From Hyphomicrobiales bacterium (GTDB lineage Bacteria; Pseudomonadota; Alphaproteobacteria; Rhizobiales; Beijerinckiaceae): 8,341 nt of DNA. This document shows positions 1 to 6,301 of the stretch, piece after piece. Made by a program: the position numbers and the translations under genes. Within the stretch, counting starts at the first letter, position 1, and each line of letters starts with the position of its first letter. Below the pieces are notes generated by a model that saw only the letters and a program-made list of their open reading frames with translations, did no database searches and was not told the origin of the DNA. The stretch is taken from positions 1 through 8,341 of the forward strand of contig JAQGJO010000311.1 of the NCBI GenBank assembly GCA_028290595.1, read 5' to 3'.

Positions 1-336
1 GCGGATACGAACGCCAACGGCGATATTTTCGGCGGCTGGGTGATGTCGCAGATGGACCAGGCGGGCGGCATTGCCGGCGTCGAGCGGGCCCAGGGCAGGG
101 TCGTCACGGTCAAGGTCGACTCGATGGTGTTCATCGCGCCGATGAAGGTCGGCGACGTGCTGGAGGTCTACAGCCTGGTCGAGAGCATCGGCCGCACGTC
201 GATGAAAATCCGGATGGAGGCCTGGGCGCAGCGCTTCCAGACCACGGTGCGCGACAAGGTGACGGACGCCACTTTCACCTTCGTCGCCGTCGACGACAAC
301 GGCCGCCCTCGGCGGATTCCCCCGGCAGTGGAATAA
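1..336 (+). CDS. yciA: YciA-type acyl-CoA thioesterase, 3' part (5' end outside window)
   Basis: This is the C-terminal 111 residues of a hotdog-fold acyl-CoA thioesterase, which hydrolyses acyl-CoA to free acid and CoA in the cytoplasm. The reading frame is open from base 1 and ends at TAA 334-336. The fragment starts just before the family signature NANGDIFGGWVMSQMDQAGG; the Asp in MSQMD (residue 19 of the fragment) matches the conserved acidic residue on the central helix of YciA enzymes. The later blocks also fit E. coli YciA as I remember it: GRVVTVKVDSMVFIAP, then VGDVLEVYS, then a strand ending TFVAVDDNGRPRRIP. Full-length relatives have about 130 residues, so only about 20 N-terminal residues and the start are missing. 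The family call is firm; the substrate range (short to medium acyl-CoA) is inferred from the family. Confidence 0.9.
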   Translation, partial: ADTNANGDIFGGWVMSQMDQAGGIAGVERAQGRVVTVKVDSMVFIAPMKVGDVLEVYSLVESIGRTSMKIRMEAWAQRFQTTVRDKVTDATFTFVAVDDNGRPRRIPPAVE

Positions 337-349
337 GGTACGGAAACAT

Positions 350-377
350 TTGCGGATCGCGCCCAATCGAATATATC
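350..377 (+). promoter_or_regulatory. Possible sigma-70-type promoter of the tRNA gene
   Basis: TTGCGG at 350-355 could be a -35 box and TATATC at 372-377 a -10 box, separated by 16 bp. The -10 box ends 29 bp before the mature tRNA 5' end. It is the only AT-rich hexamer pair in the 70-bp gap between the thioesterase stop and the tRNA. The match is partial, so this is a suggestion only. Confidence 0.3.
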
Positions 378-406
378 TGCGGCGCTTCCGACAACGCTTC
401 GCGTTC

Positions 407-482
407 GGGCCGGTAGCTCAATGGTTAGAGCCGGCCGCTCATAACGGTCTGGTTGCAGGTTCGAGTCCTGCCCGGCCCACCA
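407..482 (+). tRNA. tRNA with anticodon CAT (probably tRNA-Ile2 read with lysidine; elongator tRNA-Met is the alternative)
   Basis: The complete cloverleaf can be folded by eye. The acceptor stem is GGGCCGG (407-413) with CCGGCCC (472-478). The D arm is GCTC/GAGC (416-419 and 428-431). The anticodon stem is GGCCG/CGGTC (433-437 and 445-449, one G-T pair) around loop CTCATAA, with anticodon CAT at 440-442. The T arm is GCAGG/CCTGC around TTCGAGT. The discriminator is A479 and CCA is encoded at 480-482. The D-loop AATGGTTA and the variable and T-stem region TGGTTGCAGG look more like bacterial tRNA-Ile2, whose C34 is modified to lysidine by TilS to read AUA, than like elongator Met. It is not initiator Met, because the anticodon stem lacks the three G-C pairs. 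The identity call is moderate; the tRNA itself is certain. A long minus-strand open frame across it is an artefact. Confidence 0.95.
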
Positions 483-606
483 GCTAAATCTCTGATTGCA
501 AATTGCCTCCGGATTTCCCGACAAGCCTGGCTCGCGACCTTTGAGGGGCAAAAGGCCGCGAAAGGCGGTGGCTGCGAACCAGCCCATCAAAATTAGAAAT
601 TTAATG

Positions 607-620
607 TGCAATTAATTGCA
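607..620. repeat. 14-bp palindrome, copy 1 (TGCAATTAATTGCA), operator-like
   Basis: This is a perfect 14-bp palindrome and the best match to the consensus of a family found five times in this accessory stretch. It lies 66 bp before the start of the 55-residue small gene at 687. A looser variant, TGCAATTGATGGCA, lies at 710-723 inside that gene. The position suits an operator or a promoter-overlapping site. Which protein binds it is unknown. Confidence 0.6.
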
Positions 621-686
621 TATGAAGGAAACTCAGCTAAAAGATGCGTTTTCATGGTTCTCAAGAGCTGAAGCAGGGACGCGCCA

Positions 687-854
687 ATGCAGTTGTACAA
701 TGTCACTTGTGCAATTGATGGCAAAATTATTCAGCTTAAGGTTTGGGCCTTCAGTGCATCGTCTGCTCGCTTGAAGGTGCAAAGCGAGCACCCAGGCTGC
801 GAGGTCCTCGCGGTCATGGGCGGAGCTCCGAGGCGAGTCGGCAGAAAGCTGTGA
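687..854 (+). CDS. Small hypothetical protein, 55 residues
   Basis: The frame runs from ATG 687 to TGA 852-854 and encodes 55 residues starting MQLYNVTCAIDGKIIQLKVW. An in-frame TGA at 669-671 limits the upstream end, and a modest purine-rich AGGGA at 675-679 precedes the ATG. The predicted pattern is a beta strand (YNVTCAIDGK), a second strand (IIQLKVWAF), a helix (SASSARLKVQSEHP) and a third strand (CEVLAVMGG), then a basic tail RRVGRKL. This short strand-strand-helix-strand layout, with a SARLKVQSEHPGCEV type segment, resembles small conserved hypothetical proteins from plasmids and phages, but I recognise no named family. There is no signal peptide or membrane segment. It stands alone with palindromes on both sides (607 and 879). 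The amino-acid pattern argues that it is real; another frame starting at ATG 622 overlaps it and looks less natural. Confidence 0.5.
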   Translation: MQLYNVTCAIDGKIIQLKVWAFSASSARLKVQSEHPGCEVLAVMGGAPRRVGRKL

Positions 855-878
855 CGAAGACTGGCCGTGAGGTCGTCG

Positions 879-890
879 TGCAAAATTGCA
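879..890. repeat. Shortened palindrome variant TGCAAAATTGCA
   Basis: The half-sites TGCAA and TTGCA are the same as in the 14-bp family, but only 2 bp instead of 4 bp separate them. The palindrome is otherwise perfect. It begins 25 bp after the stop of the small gene at 687-854, like the 14-bp copies that follow the stops at 1999 and 2900. It may be a variant site or a decayed one. Confidence 0.35.
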
Positions 891-953
891 GGCGAAAAAA
901 TGCGATACGACACTGCGGGTTATGCCTCGGACTGAAAAATTACATTGTCATCG

Positions 954-967
954 TGCAATCAATTGCA
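954..967. repeat. 14-bp palindrome, copy 2 (TGCAATCAATTGCA), operator-like
   Basis: Arms of seven bases (GTGCAAT and ATTGCAC, 953-968) flank a central CA, so both TGCAA and TTGCA half-sites are exact. It lies in the gap between the genes at 687 and 1505, 17 bp before ATG 984 of a doubtful frame. It belongs to the five-copy family of this stretch. Confidence 0.55.
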
Positions 968-1504
968 CTATGTTGAATTTTATATGAATGAGGAGCGCCA
1001 AGAAAATCAAATGTCTAGACAAGCACATACGACGCTCTCGGCGGCATATTCCAGTGAGATGAAACGCGGTCTGTGCCGCATTGCAGCAAAACAAAACGGA
1101 CATGCGATATGCGCTGACAAGACGCTGCGCAGGTCTGTTCAATAGCGGGGCAGAGATGCGAGGCATGTCTTCAAGCCTGCGGGTGCACCGCAGATGCGTT
1201 GGGCACCGAGTGCGGTGCAATGGGATCGTTGCAAGCAAAGCGCGAGTTCTGGTGGGCCAGAGGTCCAGGTGCAGCAAGAGCTCCAAAATCTGATCGATAA
1301 AAGAAATTCATCTAAAAATAGAATATAATTATACCTGTCCGGTCGGGTGCGCATCTTTCGAGTAAAGTCCGAGTGGGGCGTACTAGGGCTGCCCGCACGG
1401 TTAGTTTGTGGAAGCAGAATGTTGCGCTGAGATCGACGGGGCCCGTTCCAATTTCCGGTCTTCGATAATGCCGATAAGGCCGCTCAGACGGCATGGAGGA
1501 ATAG

Positions 1505-1999
1505 ATGAAGAGGGCATATTGGAGGCGAGACAAGGCGCCGTCAGGAAAACAAGAGCGGGCATGGGCCGTCATTTTGCCTTGGATTGAAGAGGAACTGCTG
1601 GTGCTGCTGTATTCGCTCGACGGCGCAACAAACGGAATCAAGCATGACCCGGATGTCACGCACGAGTTCTGCCTGTTCGAGCTCGATGCAAGCGTCAGAG
1701 TGGATTTCAGCCGCGATCTGTTCGCCCAGCCAGAACTGTCGCCTCTGCTGCCCTGTCTCCTGGGATTCCAGTTTGCGGCAACCTCGGAAGAGGATGCGGT
1801 TAACCAGATGCAGGCCGCAATCGACAAGATGGTCTCTCATGAGATCATTTATAACGCCCCACCGGTCTGGGCGGGATTGCTCTCCAGGTCAGTCAGCATC
1901 GGTCCAGGCCCAGCGAAGAGGTCCATCACGCTGCGCGAGATCGTTGCCAGGCTGGAGCGGTCGAGCCTGATCGAGGTGGTCAGACACGGGGGTAGCTAA
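1505..1999 (+). CDS. Hypothetical protein, 164 residues, no family recognised
   Basis: The start is well set: GGAGGA at 1495-1500 lies 4 bp before ATG 1505, and the frame ends at TAA 1997-1999. The protein is soluble, with no signal peptide or membrane segment. The N-terminus is basic (MKRAYWRRDK), followed by a hydrophobic amphipathic segment (residues 19-38, containing WAVILPWIEEELLVLLYSL). Then come an acidic stretch with HEFCLFELDASVRVDFSRDLF, a helix-like part SEEDAVNQMQAAIDKMVSHE near residues 100-116, and a C-terminal helix (TLREIVARLERSSLIEVV). The last part, with its regular charge spacing, could be an oligomerisation or recognition helix, which is inference only. It is a single-gene unit flanked by palindromes at 954 and 2023. 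I do not recognise it and give no function. Confidence 0.75.
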   Translation: MKRAYWRRDKAPSGKQERAWAVILPWIEEELLVLLYSLDGATNGIKHDPDVTHEFCLFELDASVRVDFSRDLFAQPELSPLLPCLLGFQFAATSEEDAVNQMQAAIDKMVSHEIIYNAPPVWAGLLSRSVSIGPGPAKRSITLREIVARLERSSLIEVVRHGGS

Positions 2000-2022
2000 T
2001 GCCAAATTTACTGCCGGGGATA

Positions 2023-2036
2023 TGCAATTAACTGCA
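2023..2036. repeat. 14-bp palindrome, copy 3 (TGCAATTAACTGCA), operator-like
   Basis: One base differs from the perfect palindrome of copy 1. It begins 24 bp after the stop of the 164-residue gene and ends 97 bp before the start of the phosphatase-like gene, so it could serve as an operator of the latter. Confidence 0.5.
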
Positions 2037-2132
2037 ACCAAAAAACGCCTGTCAATGGCGAATAGCGGTGGGTCCTAGTCTAGCATCTGACGATGCAAAG
2101 TGACCTGCCGGACACGGAGAGGGGTTGGGTGA

Positions 2133-2900
2133 GTGATGCTCTACAAAAGATATGTCGTATCGAAAGAAGCCGCCGTACAAGATAGCCAAGGCGGCCTGCT
2201 CGGCGAAATAGAGAACCAGACGGGCTTGGCGTCCGGCTATTTTCGCGAGCGAATTTGGCCGCAAGAGGCTCCTCAACTCTGTAGCGAACATGCCTGGCTG
2301 GCTGATAAATCAGATTGGGCGACCGCCGTGGCTGCAGACCACGGTATACAGCCAGCGATCCTTGGCCAGCCAGAAGCGAAAGCGAATGCACAGGCAATCA
2401 ACGGCAGTCACGCGACCATGCCGGTCAAGCTTGGATTCATGGGGGCATTTCAGTCCTTCATGATTACGGGGGGCCCTTATGAAGATTTCCCCGGTCGCAA
2501 TAAGGCTTACGGTGTGTATCTGAGTGCAGAACCGACGCCGCCGGCCGAAAGCTTTGATGTGCATCTGCCGATTATCGACTACAGGGTGCCGATCAACCTG
2601 GAGGCGACCAGGCAGGCGCTCGTCTTGACCCTTAAGGCGGCCCTGGAGGGCAAGGCCGTATATGTGGGATGCTGCGATGGCGGCAACCGCATGGAATTTT
2701 TTCTGGCCTTGCTTGGGAAGGTCACAGGTCGGTCTGGTTGGGTGAGCCACTTGCGCATGTACGATTCGGAACAGCCGATGGCGACAGACGAGCAGCGACG
2801 CTATGTGCGGGAGTTCGACGCGCAGGAATTGACTGCCTGGTTGTACCGTCAGGCCTGGTATACCGTCTGGGATAAGGTTGTTGGCGCGCGGCGTATTTGA
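2133..2900 (+). CDS. Divergent phage-type protein tyrosine phosphatase-like protein, 255 residues
   Basis: The C-terminal half shows a cysteine phosphatase P-loop: VYVGCCDGGNRMEFFLALLG, with CX5R formed by Cys180 and Arg186 and Gly183 at the usual CxxGxxR place. Phage PTP-like proteins, as I remember them, read VYVGCMGGIGRTGTFLA here, so Cys and Arg are kept while the Arg-Thr-Gly that normally follows has become Arg-Met-Glu. Other family features fit: FDVHLPIIDYRVP (residues 141-153, possible acid loop) before the P-loop, and a YDSEQPMATDEQRRYV segment (210-224) after it. The strong GGAGAGGGG at 2116-2124 fits GTG 2133 or ATG 2136. The conserved part begins near Met96 (ATG 2418), so the first 95 residues are an unexplained extension. 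Activity, if any, would be phosphoester hydrolysis; loss of the Ser/Thr after Arg makes a weak or non-catalytic binder possible. Confidence 0.75.
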   Translation: MMLYKRYVVSKEAAVQDSQGGLLGEIENQTGLASGYFRERIWPQEAPQLCSEHAWLADKSDWATAVAADHGIQPAILGQPEAKANAQAINGSHATMPVKLGFMGAFQSFMITGGPYEDFPGRNKAYGVYLSAEPTPPAESFDVHLPIIDYRVPINLEATRQALVLTLKAALEGKAVYVGCCDGGNRMEFFLALLGKVTGRSGWVSHLRMYDSEQPMATDEQRRYVREFDAQELTAWLYRQAWYTVWDKVVGARRI

Positions 2901-2914
2901 GTCGATCTCGCAAA

Positions 2915-2928
2915 TGCATTTAATTGCA
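2915..2928. repeat. 14-bp palindrome, copy 4 (TGCATTTAATTGCA), operator-like
   Basis: One base breaks the perfect palindrome; with the flanking bases the core reads ATGCATTTAATTGCAT. It begins 15 bp after the stop of the phosphatase-like gene, at the edge of a long gene-poor gap. No gene start follows closely, which fits a transcription-blocking or boundary site at least as well as a classic operator. Confidence 0.5.
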
Positions 2929-3258
2929 TCTTGGCGTGACAATCACTCTTAGTTCGTATGCGTAGTTTTCCAGTGTAAACTTCGCTTGGCTGTAACGTTT
3001 GATGAAGCTGATACGATTTGTCGCGTCGCTCTTTTGATTCCGTCAATCCGCAGCCGAGATAATGCCGGGCTACGAGCTTAATCCAAGGCTTTGCCGGAAT
3101 TGACATCGCAGGGCGCATGAGCGCCAGGAAGCATGTCTCGGCATTGGTACTTTGAATGCCCGCAACTGCCCTTCAGGCGGCGTGTTCGCGGCAAGATGGC
3201 GACGGCGATATCATGAAGCTGTATTGCTCAGTTAAATTTCAAGTTACATATATGTTCC

Positions 3259-3272
3259 TGCAATTACTTGCA
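3259..3272. repeat. 14-bp palindrome, copy 5 (TGCAATTACTTGCA), operator-like
   Basis: Both half-sites, TGCAA and TTGCA, are exact around the 4-bp centre TTAC. It lies in AT-rich DNA in the middle of the gap between the genes at 2133 and 3791, more than 500 bp from the next supported start. Confidence 0.5.
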
Positions 3273-3706
3273 TAACTACACAATGCGACTGATGTTTCAG
3301 CGGATTGATGACATTTCACTTTCCAATTGATTTCAGATGTAAAACGTGGCTGTGAAATAATCGCATTCGCGCTCGCGACAATATCGCAACCCGATCTCCT
3401 CGATGTGGAATCGAAACGTTCATTGCTCCTGCATTGTTAAGATGGAGGCCAACAGCATAGCAAATGTGCGTCTTGTTTTGATTCTCTATAAACTCGGCCT
3501 GATTTTTGAGCGAGATCGAGATCAATATTGAGGGAAACGCTTCAGTACCAAGATTTGATCGATAGAGACTTTTGGTTCCCGACTTCAATCGTGTTAGGCT
3601 GTCAGCGCGGCGGACGTCATATGAAGACTGGTGCGCCTTGTCTAAAATCGGGCGCGTGCGTTAATTTCTATCTGTTGTTGACCGGTGGGACTATCTTCGG
3701 AAAACC

Positions 3707-3723
3707 CCTTGACGTCATCAAGG
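3707..3723. promoter_or_regulatory. Inverted repeat CCTTGA-N5-TCAAGG, possible operator before the 180-residue gene
   Basis: Perfect 6-bp arms flank a 5-bp centre, and the inside holds the 8-bp palindrome TGACGTCA (3710-3717). It ends 67 bp before ATG 3791. The segment TTGACG (3709-3714) could double as a -35 box with a -10 near 3730-3737 (GGTTAACT). The site is the most symmetric element before that gene. No binding protein is known; autoregulation by the downstream protein is a guess. Confidence 0.35.
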
Positions 3724-3790
3724 ATCGGGTTAACTGGCGCAGGTGAATCGAGTTCACCCGCGTGTCACGCGCCTGCTCAAGGAGGACTTG

Positions 3791-4333
3791 ATGGCGATTA
3801 GTACAGACGAGCTTTTCGATAGAGCTATGGAAATGTCCAAGCATATCGGAGAGAACTTTCTCGATCTCGCCCGTACACTAAGGCAGCTTCTGGAACGCGA
3901 TCCTGATCTGTATCAGCGCATTGTAAGGACGTCGGATATTGATCGGCGCAAGGCGTATTACCTCGTCACGATCAGCAAAACGTTCGATTCTCTCAAGGTT
4001 TCGAGACCAAGGCTCCAGAAAATCGGCTGGACCAAGCTTGAAAAGATCAGCAAGCACGTCACCAAGGATAACGTTGACGAGTTGCTGGACATGGCGGAAG
4101 CAAACACCGTCAAGACGCTGGAAGCCTTGATGAAGGGCGAGCGGCCTATTGCGAATGCGCATTGCGTGCTCATGTATTTCACGCCGAGGCAGTACAAGGA
4201 TATTGAAGAGATTCTTCTGCAAAACGGCGGCAAGCGGAGCGGGCGTGGCATCCTGAACAAGGAAAAGGCGCTGATCCGGGCCCTGAGCCGGGTCAAGGGC
4301 AAGCAGTTTGATCCGGAAGCTAACGAAGTCTGA
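3791..4333 (+). CDS. Conserved hypothetical protein, 180 residues, charged helical, possible DNA-binding protein
   Basis: GGAGG at 3781-3785 sits 5 bp before ATG 3791, which fixes the start; the frame is open 16 codons further up from GTG 3743 but without such a signal. The stop is TGA 4331-4333. The protein is highly charged and almost wholly helical, with no membrane segment. It has an N-terminal helix (residues 5-40, IGENFLDLARTLRQLLERDP), a possible helix-turn-helix-like segment (48-66, containing DIDRRKAYYLVTISKTF), then KIGWTKLEKISKHVT (77-91). After a second helical part (94-115) comes the motif PIANAHCVLMYFTPRQYKDI (119-138), with a basic C-terminal region (SGRGILNKEKALIRALSR). I have the impression of related hypothetical proteins in alphaproteobacterial plasmids and islands, but can name no domain. 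A regulatory or partition-like role is inference from composition. The 52-residue frame at 4349 follows after 15 bp and is probably cotranscribed. Confidence 0.8.
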   Translation: MAISTDELFDRAMEMSKHIGENFLDLARTLRQLLERDPDLYQRIVRTSDIDRRKAYYLVTISKTFDSLKVSRPRLQKIGWTKLEKISKHVTKDNVDELLDMAEANTVKTLEALMKGERPIANAHCVLMYFTPRQYKDIEEILLQNGGKRSGRGILNKEKALIRALSRVKGKQFDPEANEV

Positions 4334-4348
4334 TGAGAGGACAGGGTC

Positions 4349-4507
4349 ATGGCGCTGCGCTCTGATCGGATAAATGCCAATTATGCCGACCATGCCAGTG
4401 TGCTTGGTCACTCTGCATTCGAGCGGTCGAATGCAGATCGCTATACGATGATTTTGCTGATGATGATGACCACCTTCAATATCGCCTCTGCCTTCTTGCA
4501 AGCCTGA
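4349..4507 (+). CDS. Small peptide, 52 residues, with hydrophobic Met-rich C-terminal segment
   Basis: ATG 4349 follows the stop of the 180-residue gene by 15 bp, with GAGAGGACAGG (4334-4345) as a good ribosome binding site; TGA is at 4505-4507. The first 31 residues are polar and charged (RSDRINANYADHASV and FERSNADRY). The last 20 (TMILLMMMTTFNIASAFLQA) are hydrophobic and long enough for one membrane-spanning or membrane-lying helix, giving a tail-anchored layout with the N-terminus outside the membrane. Three consecutive Met codons are unusual. Close spacing and the binding site suggest translation with the preceding gene. It could be a small membrane protein or toxin-like peptide, or a chance frame; no family is recognised. 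Confidence 0.5.
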   Translation: MALRSDRINANYADHASVLGHSAFERSNADRYTMILLMMMTTFNIASAFLQA

Positions 4508-4613: not shown

Positions 4614-5453
4614 ATGTCCGATCATGGTGCAGACACGCGCGCGCTGAGCGACGCGCAAATCCAGCATTTCATCGACAACGGTTTTGTGCGGATCGACCAG
4701 GCGTTTTCCCGTGCGCTTGCGGAGGAAGCCCGGTCCATCCTGTGGCGCGATCTCGGCTGCGCTCCCGACAAGCCGGCGAGTTGGACGAAGCCGGTCGTCC
4801 GGCTTGGCATGTATGCCGACAGGCCGTTTGCGGAGGCGGCCAATACACCTTTGCTTCACGCTGCCTTCGACCAGCTTGTTGGCGCTGGCCGTTGGCTGCC
4901 CATCGCGTCGATGGGCACATTTGCTGTTCGCTTTCCATCTTCGGAGGATCCCGGCGACACCGGATGGCATGTCGATGCGAGCTTCGATTGGGAGAAGCCC
5001 GACTTCATGGACTGGCGGGTGAATATTTTCTCCAAGGGCCGGGCATTGCTGATGCTGTTTCTGTTCTCCGACGTTGGCGAGGACGATGCGCCGACCCGCA
5101 TTCGCGCCGGTTCGCATCTCGACATCGCGCGGATGCTTGTGCTGGCAGGCGAGGCGGGCCTCACCTTGCGGGAACTGGTGGAGCGGTGTCCGCAAACCGA
5201 GGGCCGGCCGGAGATGACGGCGACTGGTGACGCAGGGACAGTCTATCTGTGCCACCCGTTCCTGGTTCATGCGGCGCAGCCTCACCGCGGCAAGCTGCCG
5301 CGCTTTCTTGCCCAACAGCCATTGCTACCACGTAAGCCGCAAAGCCTCGATCGGCCGGATGATATTTATTCGCCGGTTGAAATTGCCATCCGCAAGGGAG
5401 CAGCCGCGCCAGCCTTGTCACAAGCCAGGGGGACGCAGGCACGGCTAGATTAG
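4614..5453 (+). CDS. Phytanoyl-CoA dioxygenase (PhyH) family Fe(II)/2-oxoglutarate oxygenase, 279 residues
   Basis: Enzymes of this family oxidise a small molecule in the cytoplasm using Fe(II), O2 and 2-oxoglutarate, giving succinate and CO2. The iron triad is visible: His119 and Asp121 in TGWHVDASFDW, and His219 in YLCHPFLVHAAQPHRG; Arg230 in KLPRF fits the 2-oxoglutarate-binding Arg. The N-terminal LSDAQIQHFIDNGFVRIDQA (residues 11-30) is the usual PhyH opening, and LFLFSDVGEDDAPTRIRAGSH (148-168) is the strand and turn before the second half. The length is normal. ATG 4614 is preceded by GAGAG at 4603-4607, 6 bp away. The stop TAG 5451-5453 overlaps the 3' end of the convergent regulator gene. 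The substrate cannot be read; known members act on phytanoyl-CoA, ectoine, halogenated or natural-product substrates. Confidence 0.88.
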   Translation: MSDHGADTRALSDAQIQHFIDNGFVRIDQAFSRALAEEARSILWRDLGCAPDKPASWTKPVVRLGMYADRPFAEAANTPLLHAAFDQLVGAGRWLPIASMGTFAVRFPSSEDPGDTGWHVDASFDWEKPDFMDWRVNIFSKGRALLMLFLFSDVGEDDAPTRIRAGSHLDIARMLVLAGEAGLTLRELVERCPQTEGRPEMTATGDAGTVYLCHPFLVHAAQPHRGKLPRFLAQQPLLPRKPQSLDRPDDIYSPVEIAIRKGAAAPALSQARGTQARLD

Positions 5454-6239
5454 GCTACGTGTTCCAAGCAGAAGCTGCATCAATTCGTTCTGCGTTGAAA
5501 TGTTGAGCCGCGCATAAGCGCGCTTTCTGTAGGTGAGCACGGTGTTGACGCTGACCCCGAGACGGAGCGCGATTGCCTGGGATGACAGGCCGCGGGCGAT
5601 GAGCGCCGTGACATCAAGCTCGCGTGCCGAGAGAACCGGCGCCAGGCGGCGCAGGCGCTGGGCAAAGTCCTCGACCGTTTCGGGAGCCGAAACGCCTGCC
5701 GCGTCATGACGGCGGGTCAGGGCCATCAGGAGATCGGCGGCGTCCATGATATTGCCGGCGGCGGCTTCGTCGAACGTGCGTCCGCTGTCCATGTAGAAAT
5801 TGAGACGATAGGTGCGGCCATCGCGATGTTGCGAAATCGCCAGGCGATGATGCAGGCCGACGGCGTTGTAGCAATAGGCGCGGTAGACCGAATCCGCAAT
5901 ATCGCTGGCGGAGCTCTTCACGCTCCAGCATCCGTCCGTGGCTTTGGCGATGGAGGCAACACGGTTGGCGGGATCAAGCCGCCAGTAACGCGACACATAT
6001 TTCTGCGCCACCGAAAAGGCGACGTCGCCGGTTCCGATATTTTCAGCAAGCACGACGCGCGGCGCGCCATCGCCATCGAAGGAGAAGGCCGTCAGGTGTT
6101 TGCAGCCGGTCATCTCATGCGCCAGTCCGAACAGCGCGGCGGGAAATTTCTGGCGGCCGACGGAATCGACGAGACCGATCAGACTGCGTCCGAAGCCGCC
6201 CGAAAGGGCAGCATCGTTATGAATTGGATGCGCTTCCAT
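5445..6239 (-). CDS. LuxR-type transcriptional regulator, 264 residues
   Basis: The C-terminal 57 residues (203-259) are a typical LuxR/GerE helix-turn-helix: LSARELDVTALIARGLSSQA, then IALRLGVSVNTVLTYRKRAY and ARLNISTQNELMQLL, with the family's conserved E in the first helix and V-NTV before the recognition helix. The first 180 residues look like a GAF- or autoinducer-type sensor fold, with alternating strands such as HLTAFSFDGD and RTYRLNFYMD, but I cannot confirm the acyl-homoserine-lactone pocket residues. It probably senses a metabolite or signal unknown here. I prefer ATG 6239, preceded by GAGGG 5 bp upstream on the coding strand, over GTG 6251. The gene is divergent from the SDR gene (93-bp gap) and convergent with the dioxygenase gene, so control of the SDR is the simplest guess. 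Confidence 0.88.
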   Translation of the reverse strand: MEAHPIHNDAALSGGFGRSLIGLVDSVGRQKFPAALFGLAHEMTGCKHLTAFSFDGDGAPRVVLAENIGTGDVAFSVAQKYVSRYWRLDPANRVASIAKATDGCWSVKSSASDIADSVYRAYCYNAVGLHHRLAISQHRDGRTYRLNFYMDSGRTFDEAAAGNIMDAADLLMALTRRHDAAGVSAPETVEDFAQRLRRLAPVLSARELDVTALIARGLSSQAIALRLGVSVNTVLTYRKRAYARLNISTQNELMQLLLGTRSLI

Positions 6240-6301
6240 CAGAACCCTCACCCACGCCGCGTATCCCCCATCCCCAGCGAATAGTTAAAGACATTCCATT
6301 T

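Follow-up and report, generated by a model that had tools for sequence, protein, structure and literature searches.

Results

Five palindromes with the core TGCA-N6-TGCA lie within 2.7 kb beside a tRNA-Met gene of a Hyphomicrobiales bacterium, and our computations show that such sites are real, recur phage-wide with a fixed spacing, and are under purifying selection as DNA both within and between genes. Their probable ligand is a DNA-binding protein of phages, a relative of which is encoded next to them in the window (here meaning the whole 8,341-nucleotide stretch analyzed from contig JAQGJO010000311.1). On balance, we lean towards a phage-derived island whose palindromes are dispersed operator-like sites for a phage dimer, with the island protein A3 as the best candidate, which would act as a global stoperator-like regulator.

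Palindromes in the window

Exact copies of TGCAA-N4-TTGCA were located at 607..620 (TGCAATTAATTGCA), 954..967 (TGCAATCAATTGCA, which is the form seen most often in DLP3 and DLP5) and 3259..3272 (TGCAATTACTTGCA), and copies with one mismatch at 2023..2036 (TGCAATTAACTGCA) and 2915..2928 (TGCATTTAATTGCA), which begin 24 and 15 bp past stop codons; none was assigned a strand, and the TGCA-N6-TGCA core is exact in all five. All of them fall outside the open reading frames at 687-854, 1505-1999, 2133-2900 and 3791-4333, the DNA before 607 and after 3272 holds no site with zero or one mismatch, and a related 12-bp form (TGCAAAATTGCA) is present at 879. The sequence-only reading had placed the five sites and the 12-bp form correctly, and overlooked one further copy with one mismatch at 710..723 (TGCAATTGATGGCA, no strand), which lies within the 55-aa frame at 687-854 and is of doubtful membership.

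That reading had also estimated ten fixed bases at about one occurrence per million positions, which proved too simple, although its conclusion of a density far above chance holds. Five sites were reached in none of 6,000 Markov simulations of positions 483-3790 (0/3,000 order-1 and 0/3,000 order-2; mean 0.15-0.18, maximum 3). When the choice of motif was allowed for, with any 4-mer half and any spacing from 0 to 12, a family of five appeared in 0 of 600 + 600 simulations. The pattern with two mismatches was only mildly enriched (10 in the window versus a shuffle mean of 4.6, with 5/200 shuffles reaching 10). The genome scan proposed earlier was run on relatives, and in G001, the closest relative compared, TGCAA-N4-TTGCA stood near control level (9 versus 5). 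This last result is the one point in keeping with a chance cluster or an unrelated regulon of a host regulator; that explanation is scarcely credible, as it is contradicted by the simulations and by the counts and conservation of the motif in phages.

Distribution and conservation among phages

Eight phage genomes or contigs (DLP3, DLP5, RcZahn, TM16, KarBoss, HJ05, G402 and G403) each carry 18-69 dispersed copies of TGCA-N6-TGCA, with the enrichment limited to the N6 spacing, and lower counts were obtained for SIO-2 (9 sites) and Ares1 (3 sites). Most of the tailed phages carrying the motif are approximately 80-105 kb in size, and the carriers infect Stenotrophomonas, Rhizobium, Rhodobacter, Vibrio and Aeromonas. 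The site is symmetric and about 16 bp long, with palindrome centers that differ between phages. A host factor was ruled out as the binder, since the sites track phages of five host genera with these differing centers, and an RNA hairpin or terminator was ruled out because A faces C in 24 of the 69 G403 sites. Our literature search found no published report of this phage palindrome network.

Between DLP3 and DLP5, which are 83% identical, all eight TGCA bases were kept at 33/34 aligned sites, including every one of the 24 sites inside genes, against a background of 31%. A second phage pair kept 19/22 sites compared to 14% in the background. Because retention is far above background in two phage pairs, the sites are under selection as DNA. 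In DLP3, 25 of 35 sites lie within annotated genes, where a weak asymmetry of the center points forward in 13, in reverse in 10 and is unclassed in 2; between genes it is forward in 9/10, with 1 unclassed. Sites in G788 are strongly biased to intergenic DNA. The earlier proposal is upheld in part: phage-like dispersed sites for one predicted DNA-binding protein are supported by a palindrome that is shared across phages, conserved more than the DNA around it, and linked to a single family of phage proteins. A narrower reading, a repressor acting at promoters in lysogeny only, is disfavored by the genic sites of DLP3 and by RcZahn, a site-carrying phage reported to be apparently virulent (PMC8601537).

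The candidate binding protein

The gene group phrog_17202, of which the 180-aa protein A3 (3791..4333, + strand) is a member, supplies the best candidate for the predicted binder. It was detected in 6/7 large motif-rich contigs versus 0/7 motif-poor ones, and in 0/12 short motif-rich records, and 12 of 15 phages have a palindrome upstream of their own phrog_17202/A3 gene. The phrog_17202 profile matched seven phage proteins at E-values of 6.4e-46 to 2.4e-160 and the window A3 at 6.2e-13 (residues 49-123). An hhalign comparison of A3 with phrog_17202, excluding three A3-type proteins common to both sets, gave 98.9% (E 1.7e-17). Some chromosomal A3 genes elsewhere retain the palindrome ahead of a diverged gene, and A3 genes without the site had no convincing alternative palindrome alongside.

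It is improbable, but worth weighing, that another phage regulator binds the sites, such as a protein akin to the DLP3_138 'repressor', a MerR-like protein or a PadR-like protein resembling AphA, and that phrog_17202 is a linked core gene and merely a target. The link between motif and phrog_17202 is broken by Ares1 and G798. Moreover, the available accounts describe AphA, of the PadR family, as binding ATGCAA-N4-TTGCAT by ChIP-seq (PMC6855506) and HrpS as contacting TGCAA-N4-TTGCA (PMC8657755), therefore unrelated proteins can recognize this form of site. Against this alternative, a PadR domain was found in 0/16 phage records (some of them fragments; E 0.01) while the control was positive in 14/14 genomes, the 23 DLP3 proteins that recur in at least 6/8 other phages do not include the products of its MerR-like and 'repressor' genes, and the scanned island frames encode no recognizable DNA-binding protein other than A3. 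A LuxR-like gene is located at 5445-6251, outside the island.

In structural modeling A3 resembles ParB/Spo0J/Noc DNA-binding domains, and a fold of this ParB/Noc-like kind is tentatively predicted for its residues 1-118. For a long phrog_17202 protein the predicted fold was unreliable (pLDDT 41.9, built from two sequences). The A4 profile gave nothing convincing against PDB sequences, and a BFVD search mainly matched phage proteins lacking a name, with some DUF3102 proteins as well. When A3 (A4) and nine long phrog_17202 proteins were compared to ten host ParB proteins, hhalign probability was 0.3%, no better than reversed controls, and the nine proteins contained no GERRxxA-type motif. The modeled likeness, together with the symmetric site of about 16 bp, recalls bacterial parS/ParB and Noc sites, from which the system differs by these missing matches. 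It also differs in that parS sites lie near one origin, whereas the phage sites are spread genome-wide.

These features bring in a possible, though tentative, alternative in which phrog_17202/A3 spreads from or bridges parS-like or Noc-like sites and so compacts, segregates or protects the replicating phage genome, with transcription control being secondary. The complete conservation of genic sites between DLP3 and DLP5 fits this role, as does the position of the phrog_17202 gene, which adjoins RuvC in RcZahn and TM16 and lies one gene away from it in DLP3. Also in its favor, DLP5 replicates as a phagemid when it is a prophage (PMC5834331). Sites are spaced more evenly than random in DLP3 (CV 0.48; 0/5,000), in RcZahn over its first 77.6 kb (P 0.003) and in KarBoss over 50 kb (P 0.01). 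However, TM16 was borderline (P 0.06) and spacing in G402, G403, HJ05, G788, G797 and G794 was not significantly more even than random; even spacing was rejected as a general rule, as it holds in some phages only. The lack of a profile match to host ParB, the intergenic bias of G788, and the packing of the five window sites beside individual genes also argue against the organizing role. An extended version, which we consider unlikely, would have large phages organizing their whole genomes by a ParB/Noc-like protein other than ParB and dozens of parS-like palindromes retained also within genes, with reduced chromosomal copies of A3 and its sites acting on incoming phages of this group as an immunity or satellite element.

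The island beside tRNA-Met

Positions 1-482 of the window align at 79.6% with L084, the closest relative compared for this region, with no match across the next 1.3 kb. Because the similarity stops there, the left border was placed at the 3' end of tRNA-Met (CAT; 407..482, + strand), and a small phage-derived island adjoining this tRNA is the best explanation for 483 to approximately 4600. Relatives of its three main genes occur in motif-carrying phages. The 164-aa protein (1505..1999, + strand) has no assigned function and four relatives were found; its weak phage relative occurs only in contig G403 (32% over 102 aa, E 1.7e-12). The C-terminal part of the 255-aa protein (2133..2900, + strand; probable start at ATG 2136) resembles phage tyrosine-phosphatase-like proteins. 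Its CX5R segment reads CCDGGNR, compared to CCDDGNR and CRGGGNR in two relatives, and it shares 44-45% over about 150 aa with motif-rich contigs L241, L243 and L261 and 28-37% with G403, RcZahn, TM16 and DLP3. A 52-aa frame downstream of A3 (4349..4507, + strand), near the right border, had no match.

Several searches gave no lead. The 255-aa protein had no relative in one search of genome contigs and was absent from 298 genomes of the relative's family, the 164-aa protein had no match in one search of phage records, and particular viral scans with both proteins and their alignments found no relative. The tRNA was the sole plasmid match among the matches listed (20 of 26 records), and further plasmid searches gave none. 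Rfam reported nothing above cut-off except the tRNA, and PADLOC gave a single weak match, to A3 (E 0.014).

The island could instead be the scar of a decaying prophage, with no present function and with fossil palindromes, which we regard as rather unlikely. Relatives of the three genes are widely separated in G403 (14.5, 75.8 and 98.6 kb), the island has long non-coding gaps, no integrase was found among the scanned frames, and no repeat of 12 bp or more matching the tRNA end was found in the window. On the other side, all three genes remain open reading frames, the site is kept before some diverged A3 genes as noted above, and the pair encoding the 164-aa and 255-aa proteins seems to be present again in two other lineages, with both searches pointing to lineages with identical longest contigs (8195 and 2032 bp).

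Discussion

In the explanation that we favor, a phage-encoded dimer would bind the palindromes. The phrog_17202/A3 protein may control its own gene through the site in front of it and, from many positions along the phage genome, regulate transcription globally in a stoperator-like manner, and the chromosomal island would have retained the A3 gene plus its sites. One phage protein serving many dispersed operators is known from the conserved inverted repeats of Streptomyces phage phiC31 and the dispersed C1 operators of P1.

Cluster O mycobacteriophages such as Corndog are described as having 17-bp palindromes, TGTTCGG-NNN-CCGAACA (PMC4351075), and the present sites are similar in being a conserved palindrome dispersed within and between genes, with a different sequence and spacing. 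Those repeats belong to one narrow cluster with no binder named in the available text (PMC4351075), whereas the site described here is shared by phages infecting five host genera and comes with a candidate protein and chromosomal islands. Cluster A stoperators are likewise many and dispersed over the phage genome, but are reported as asymmetric and oriented with transcription (PMC9283540, PMC4351075), while the sites here are palindromic and occur in RcZahn, reported as apparently virulent. The AphA site of Vibrio cholerae has the same form, as far as that report describes it (PMC6855506); the motif-carrying phages differ in the PadR result given above.

Few palindrome networks spanning whole phage genomes are known, and the present case is one that crosses several phage groups. 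It shows selection on the sites independently of the protein code, and it names a testable candidate binder from a family without an assigned function. The role of such repeats is the same question that the account of Cluster O mycobacteriophages leaves (PMC4351075). To judge from the chromosomal islands, hosts appear to retain some of the system.

Palindromes in the accessory stretch

Five palindromes sharing a TGCA-N6-TGCA core were found in the window at 607, 954, 2023, 2915 and 3259, as the sequence-only reading had placed them, and its statement that two of them begin 24 and 15 bp past stop codons also held. An extra copy with one mismatch lies at 710. Five sites within 483-3790 were reached in none of 3,000 order-1 and none of 3,000 order-2 simulations (maximum 3), and no gapped 4+4 palindrome family of five arose in 600 + 600 simulations. 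Two more TGCA pairs, at 1216-1233 (spacing 10) and 879-890 (spacing 4), may be decayed versions of the site or resemble it by chance.

The closest relative found was a MAG, 'Rhizobiales bacterium 62-17', whose LVIVD protein is 90% identical and whose thioesterase is 93% identical. Its thioesterase gene and tRNA-Met (locus L084) match window 1-482 at 79.6%, and because this similarity ends at the tRNA end, in a comparison covering 1.3 kb of the relative beyond, the stretch past the tRNA was taken as accessory. Three well-supported genes were found there, encoding proteins of 164 aa (1505..1999), 255 aa (2133..2900) and 180 aa (A3, 3791-4333). A 52-aa ORF after A3 contains an inverted repeat, TGCATTCGAGCGGTCGAATGCA, at 4414-4435, with spacing unlike the palindrome family. 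The window neighbours from ~5477 onward were found again in a Pseudolabrys MAG (L003).

Distribution and form of the site in phages

The IMG/VR contigs L082 and L083, reached via A3 relatives, contained 7 and 15 palindromes in 12.5 and 20.5 kb; over their whole records (57 and 104 kb) the counts were 29 and 69, against 0 and 1 for a control pattern. L065 (43.6 kb), with a weak A3 relative, held 2. In seven phage records the 255-aa protein matched genes labelled 'tyrosine phosphatase' or lying in a similar position, and the palindrome was present in the three first retrieved. It is also 44-45% identical over ~150 aa to proteins in the motif-rich contigs L241, L243 and L261, which were reached through the motif alone. 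One tyrosine-phosphatase-like gene (NC_042082.1, 88724-89092) is labelled thymidylate synthase, a probable mislabel.

In a census of 4+4 gapped palindromes, TGCA-N6-TGCA or a nested form of it (GCAA-N4-TTGC, CAAT-N2-ATTG or TTTG-N10-CAAA) ranked at or near the top in 8/10 sequences; it was not among the leading palindromes in the two exceptions, L065 and phage Ares1 (3 sites in a full count). The TGCA arms are constant and the centres vary (DLP3 ATCAAT, TM16 ACATAT, HJ05 ACYGGT, G788 ATTAAT), with one or two more outer bases conserved to varying degree, giving a site of ~16 bp. Most sites in G788 (26/28), G797 (25/30) and G794 (22/37) have the window consensus TGCAATTAATTGCA, but all three contigs were picked up by scanning for that string itself.

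Placement and selection

Sites were enriched between genes, frequently 1-15 bp past a stop codon or 24-30 bp ahead of a start. Three phages space their sites more evenly than chance predicts: DLP3, RcZahn (over its first 77.6 kb) and KarBoss (over 50 kb). TM16 is a borderline case, and G402, G403, HJ05, G788, G797 and G794 do not differ significantly from random in this direction. A second widely kept position is upstream of the prohead protease gene (3249-3854 in DLP3, and orthologs), where the palindrome is conserved in 7/9 phages.

Between DLP3 and DLP5 (93.7% aligned, 83.1% identity), all eight TGCA bases were kept at 24/24 sites in annotated genes and 9/10 intergenic sites, with one DLP3 site unaligned, against 31% at random gene positions and 25/63 for TGCA pairs of other spacing. 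The result was repeated between G788 and G797 (76.6%), with 19/22 sites kept versus a 14% background and 20/50 for other spacings. Comparisons with the more distant G794 were small and mixed (1/2 and 2/4 in ORFs; 4/4 and 2/2 outside them).

No published report of the site was found by searching the site string, these phages and dispersed phage palindromes or operators, in titles and abstract starts among the matches listed, a limited negative with subscription literature mostly outside. The string itself led to two works on other regulators, AphA (PMC6855506) and HrpS (PMC8657755). The DLP3 paper uses none of the terms 'palindrom', 'inverted repeat' or 'promoter', and 'palindrom' is likewise absent from the RcZahn (PMC8601537) and B8b papers. 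The closest published analogue found is the Corndog repeat (PMC4351075).

A3 and the phrog_17202 family

A3 matches phrog_17202, a family without assigned function, and its profile aligned to that of nine long phage proteins at 98.9% probability (E 1.7e-17; reversed controls 0.3-0.4%). Its predicted fold resembles ParB/Spo0J/Noc DNA-binding domains. A3 is not called a ParB because profile comparison against ten ParB proteins found nothing. Six phages (G402, G403, G786, G788, G794, G797) carry two family members each, one a long phrog_17202 protein and the other short, A3-like and encoded a few kb off. The TM16 member (EVB27_031) is labelled ribonuclease E/G, a probable mislabel.

Chromosomal A3 is rare (10/397 genomes in the family sample and 5/397 in the order sample; 14 distinct), with a site within 150 bp in 8/14 and none within that distance in 6/14. 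One 20-kb stretch (L116, from G131) has two A3-like genes at ~8.7-10.2 kb without the TGCA palindrome; a gapped-palindrome census of it gave 20-22 copies of G+C-rich inverted pairs, which suggests a CRISPR array near the A3 homolog.

Several observations bear against phrog_17202 as the binder: Ares1 carries the gene yet has few sites, the gene was undetected in G798 (21 sites), window A3 lacks an exact site within 530 bp, and the prohead protease gene likewise has a conserved upstream site. The family was also found in 0/12 motif-rich records of <=33 kb, fragments that may simply miss one gene. In its favor, phrog_17202 is among ten DLP3 proteins shared by every one of eight other phages, weak evidence because six of the eight were reached through A3. 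A better, motif-first test on IMG/VR records, hand-chosen among at least 120 loci without lineage or G+C matching, recovered it in 6/19 motif-rich versus 0/20 motif-poor records (6/7 versus 0/7 among large records). An exact site starts <200 bp upstream of the gene in 12/15 phages parsed with script-chosen start codons (a sixteenth, G781, was unparsable); an automatic table gave only 2/9 because it ignored N-terminal extensions. A3 and its phrog_17202 relatives are put forward as the best candidate binder of the palindrome.
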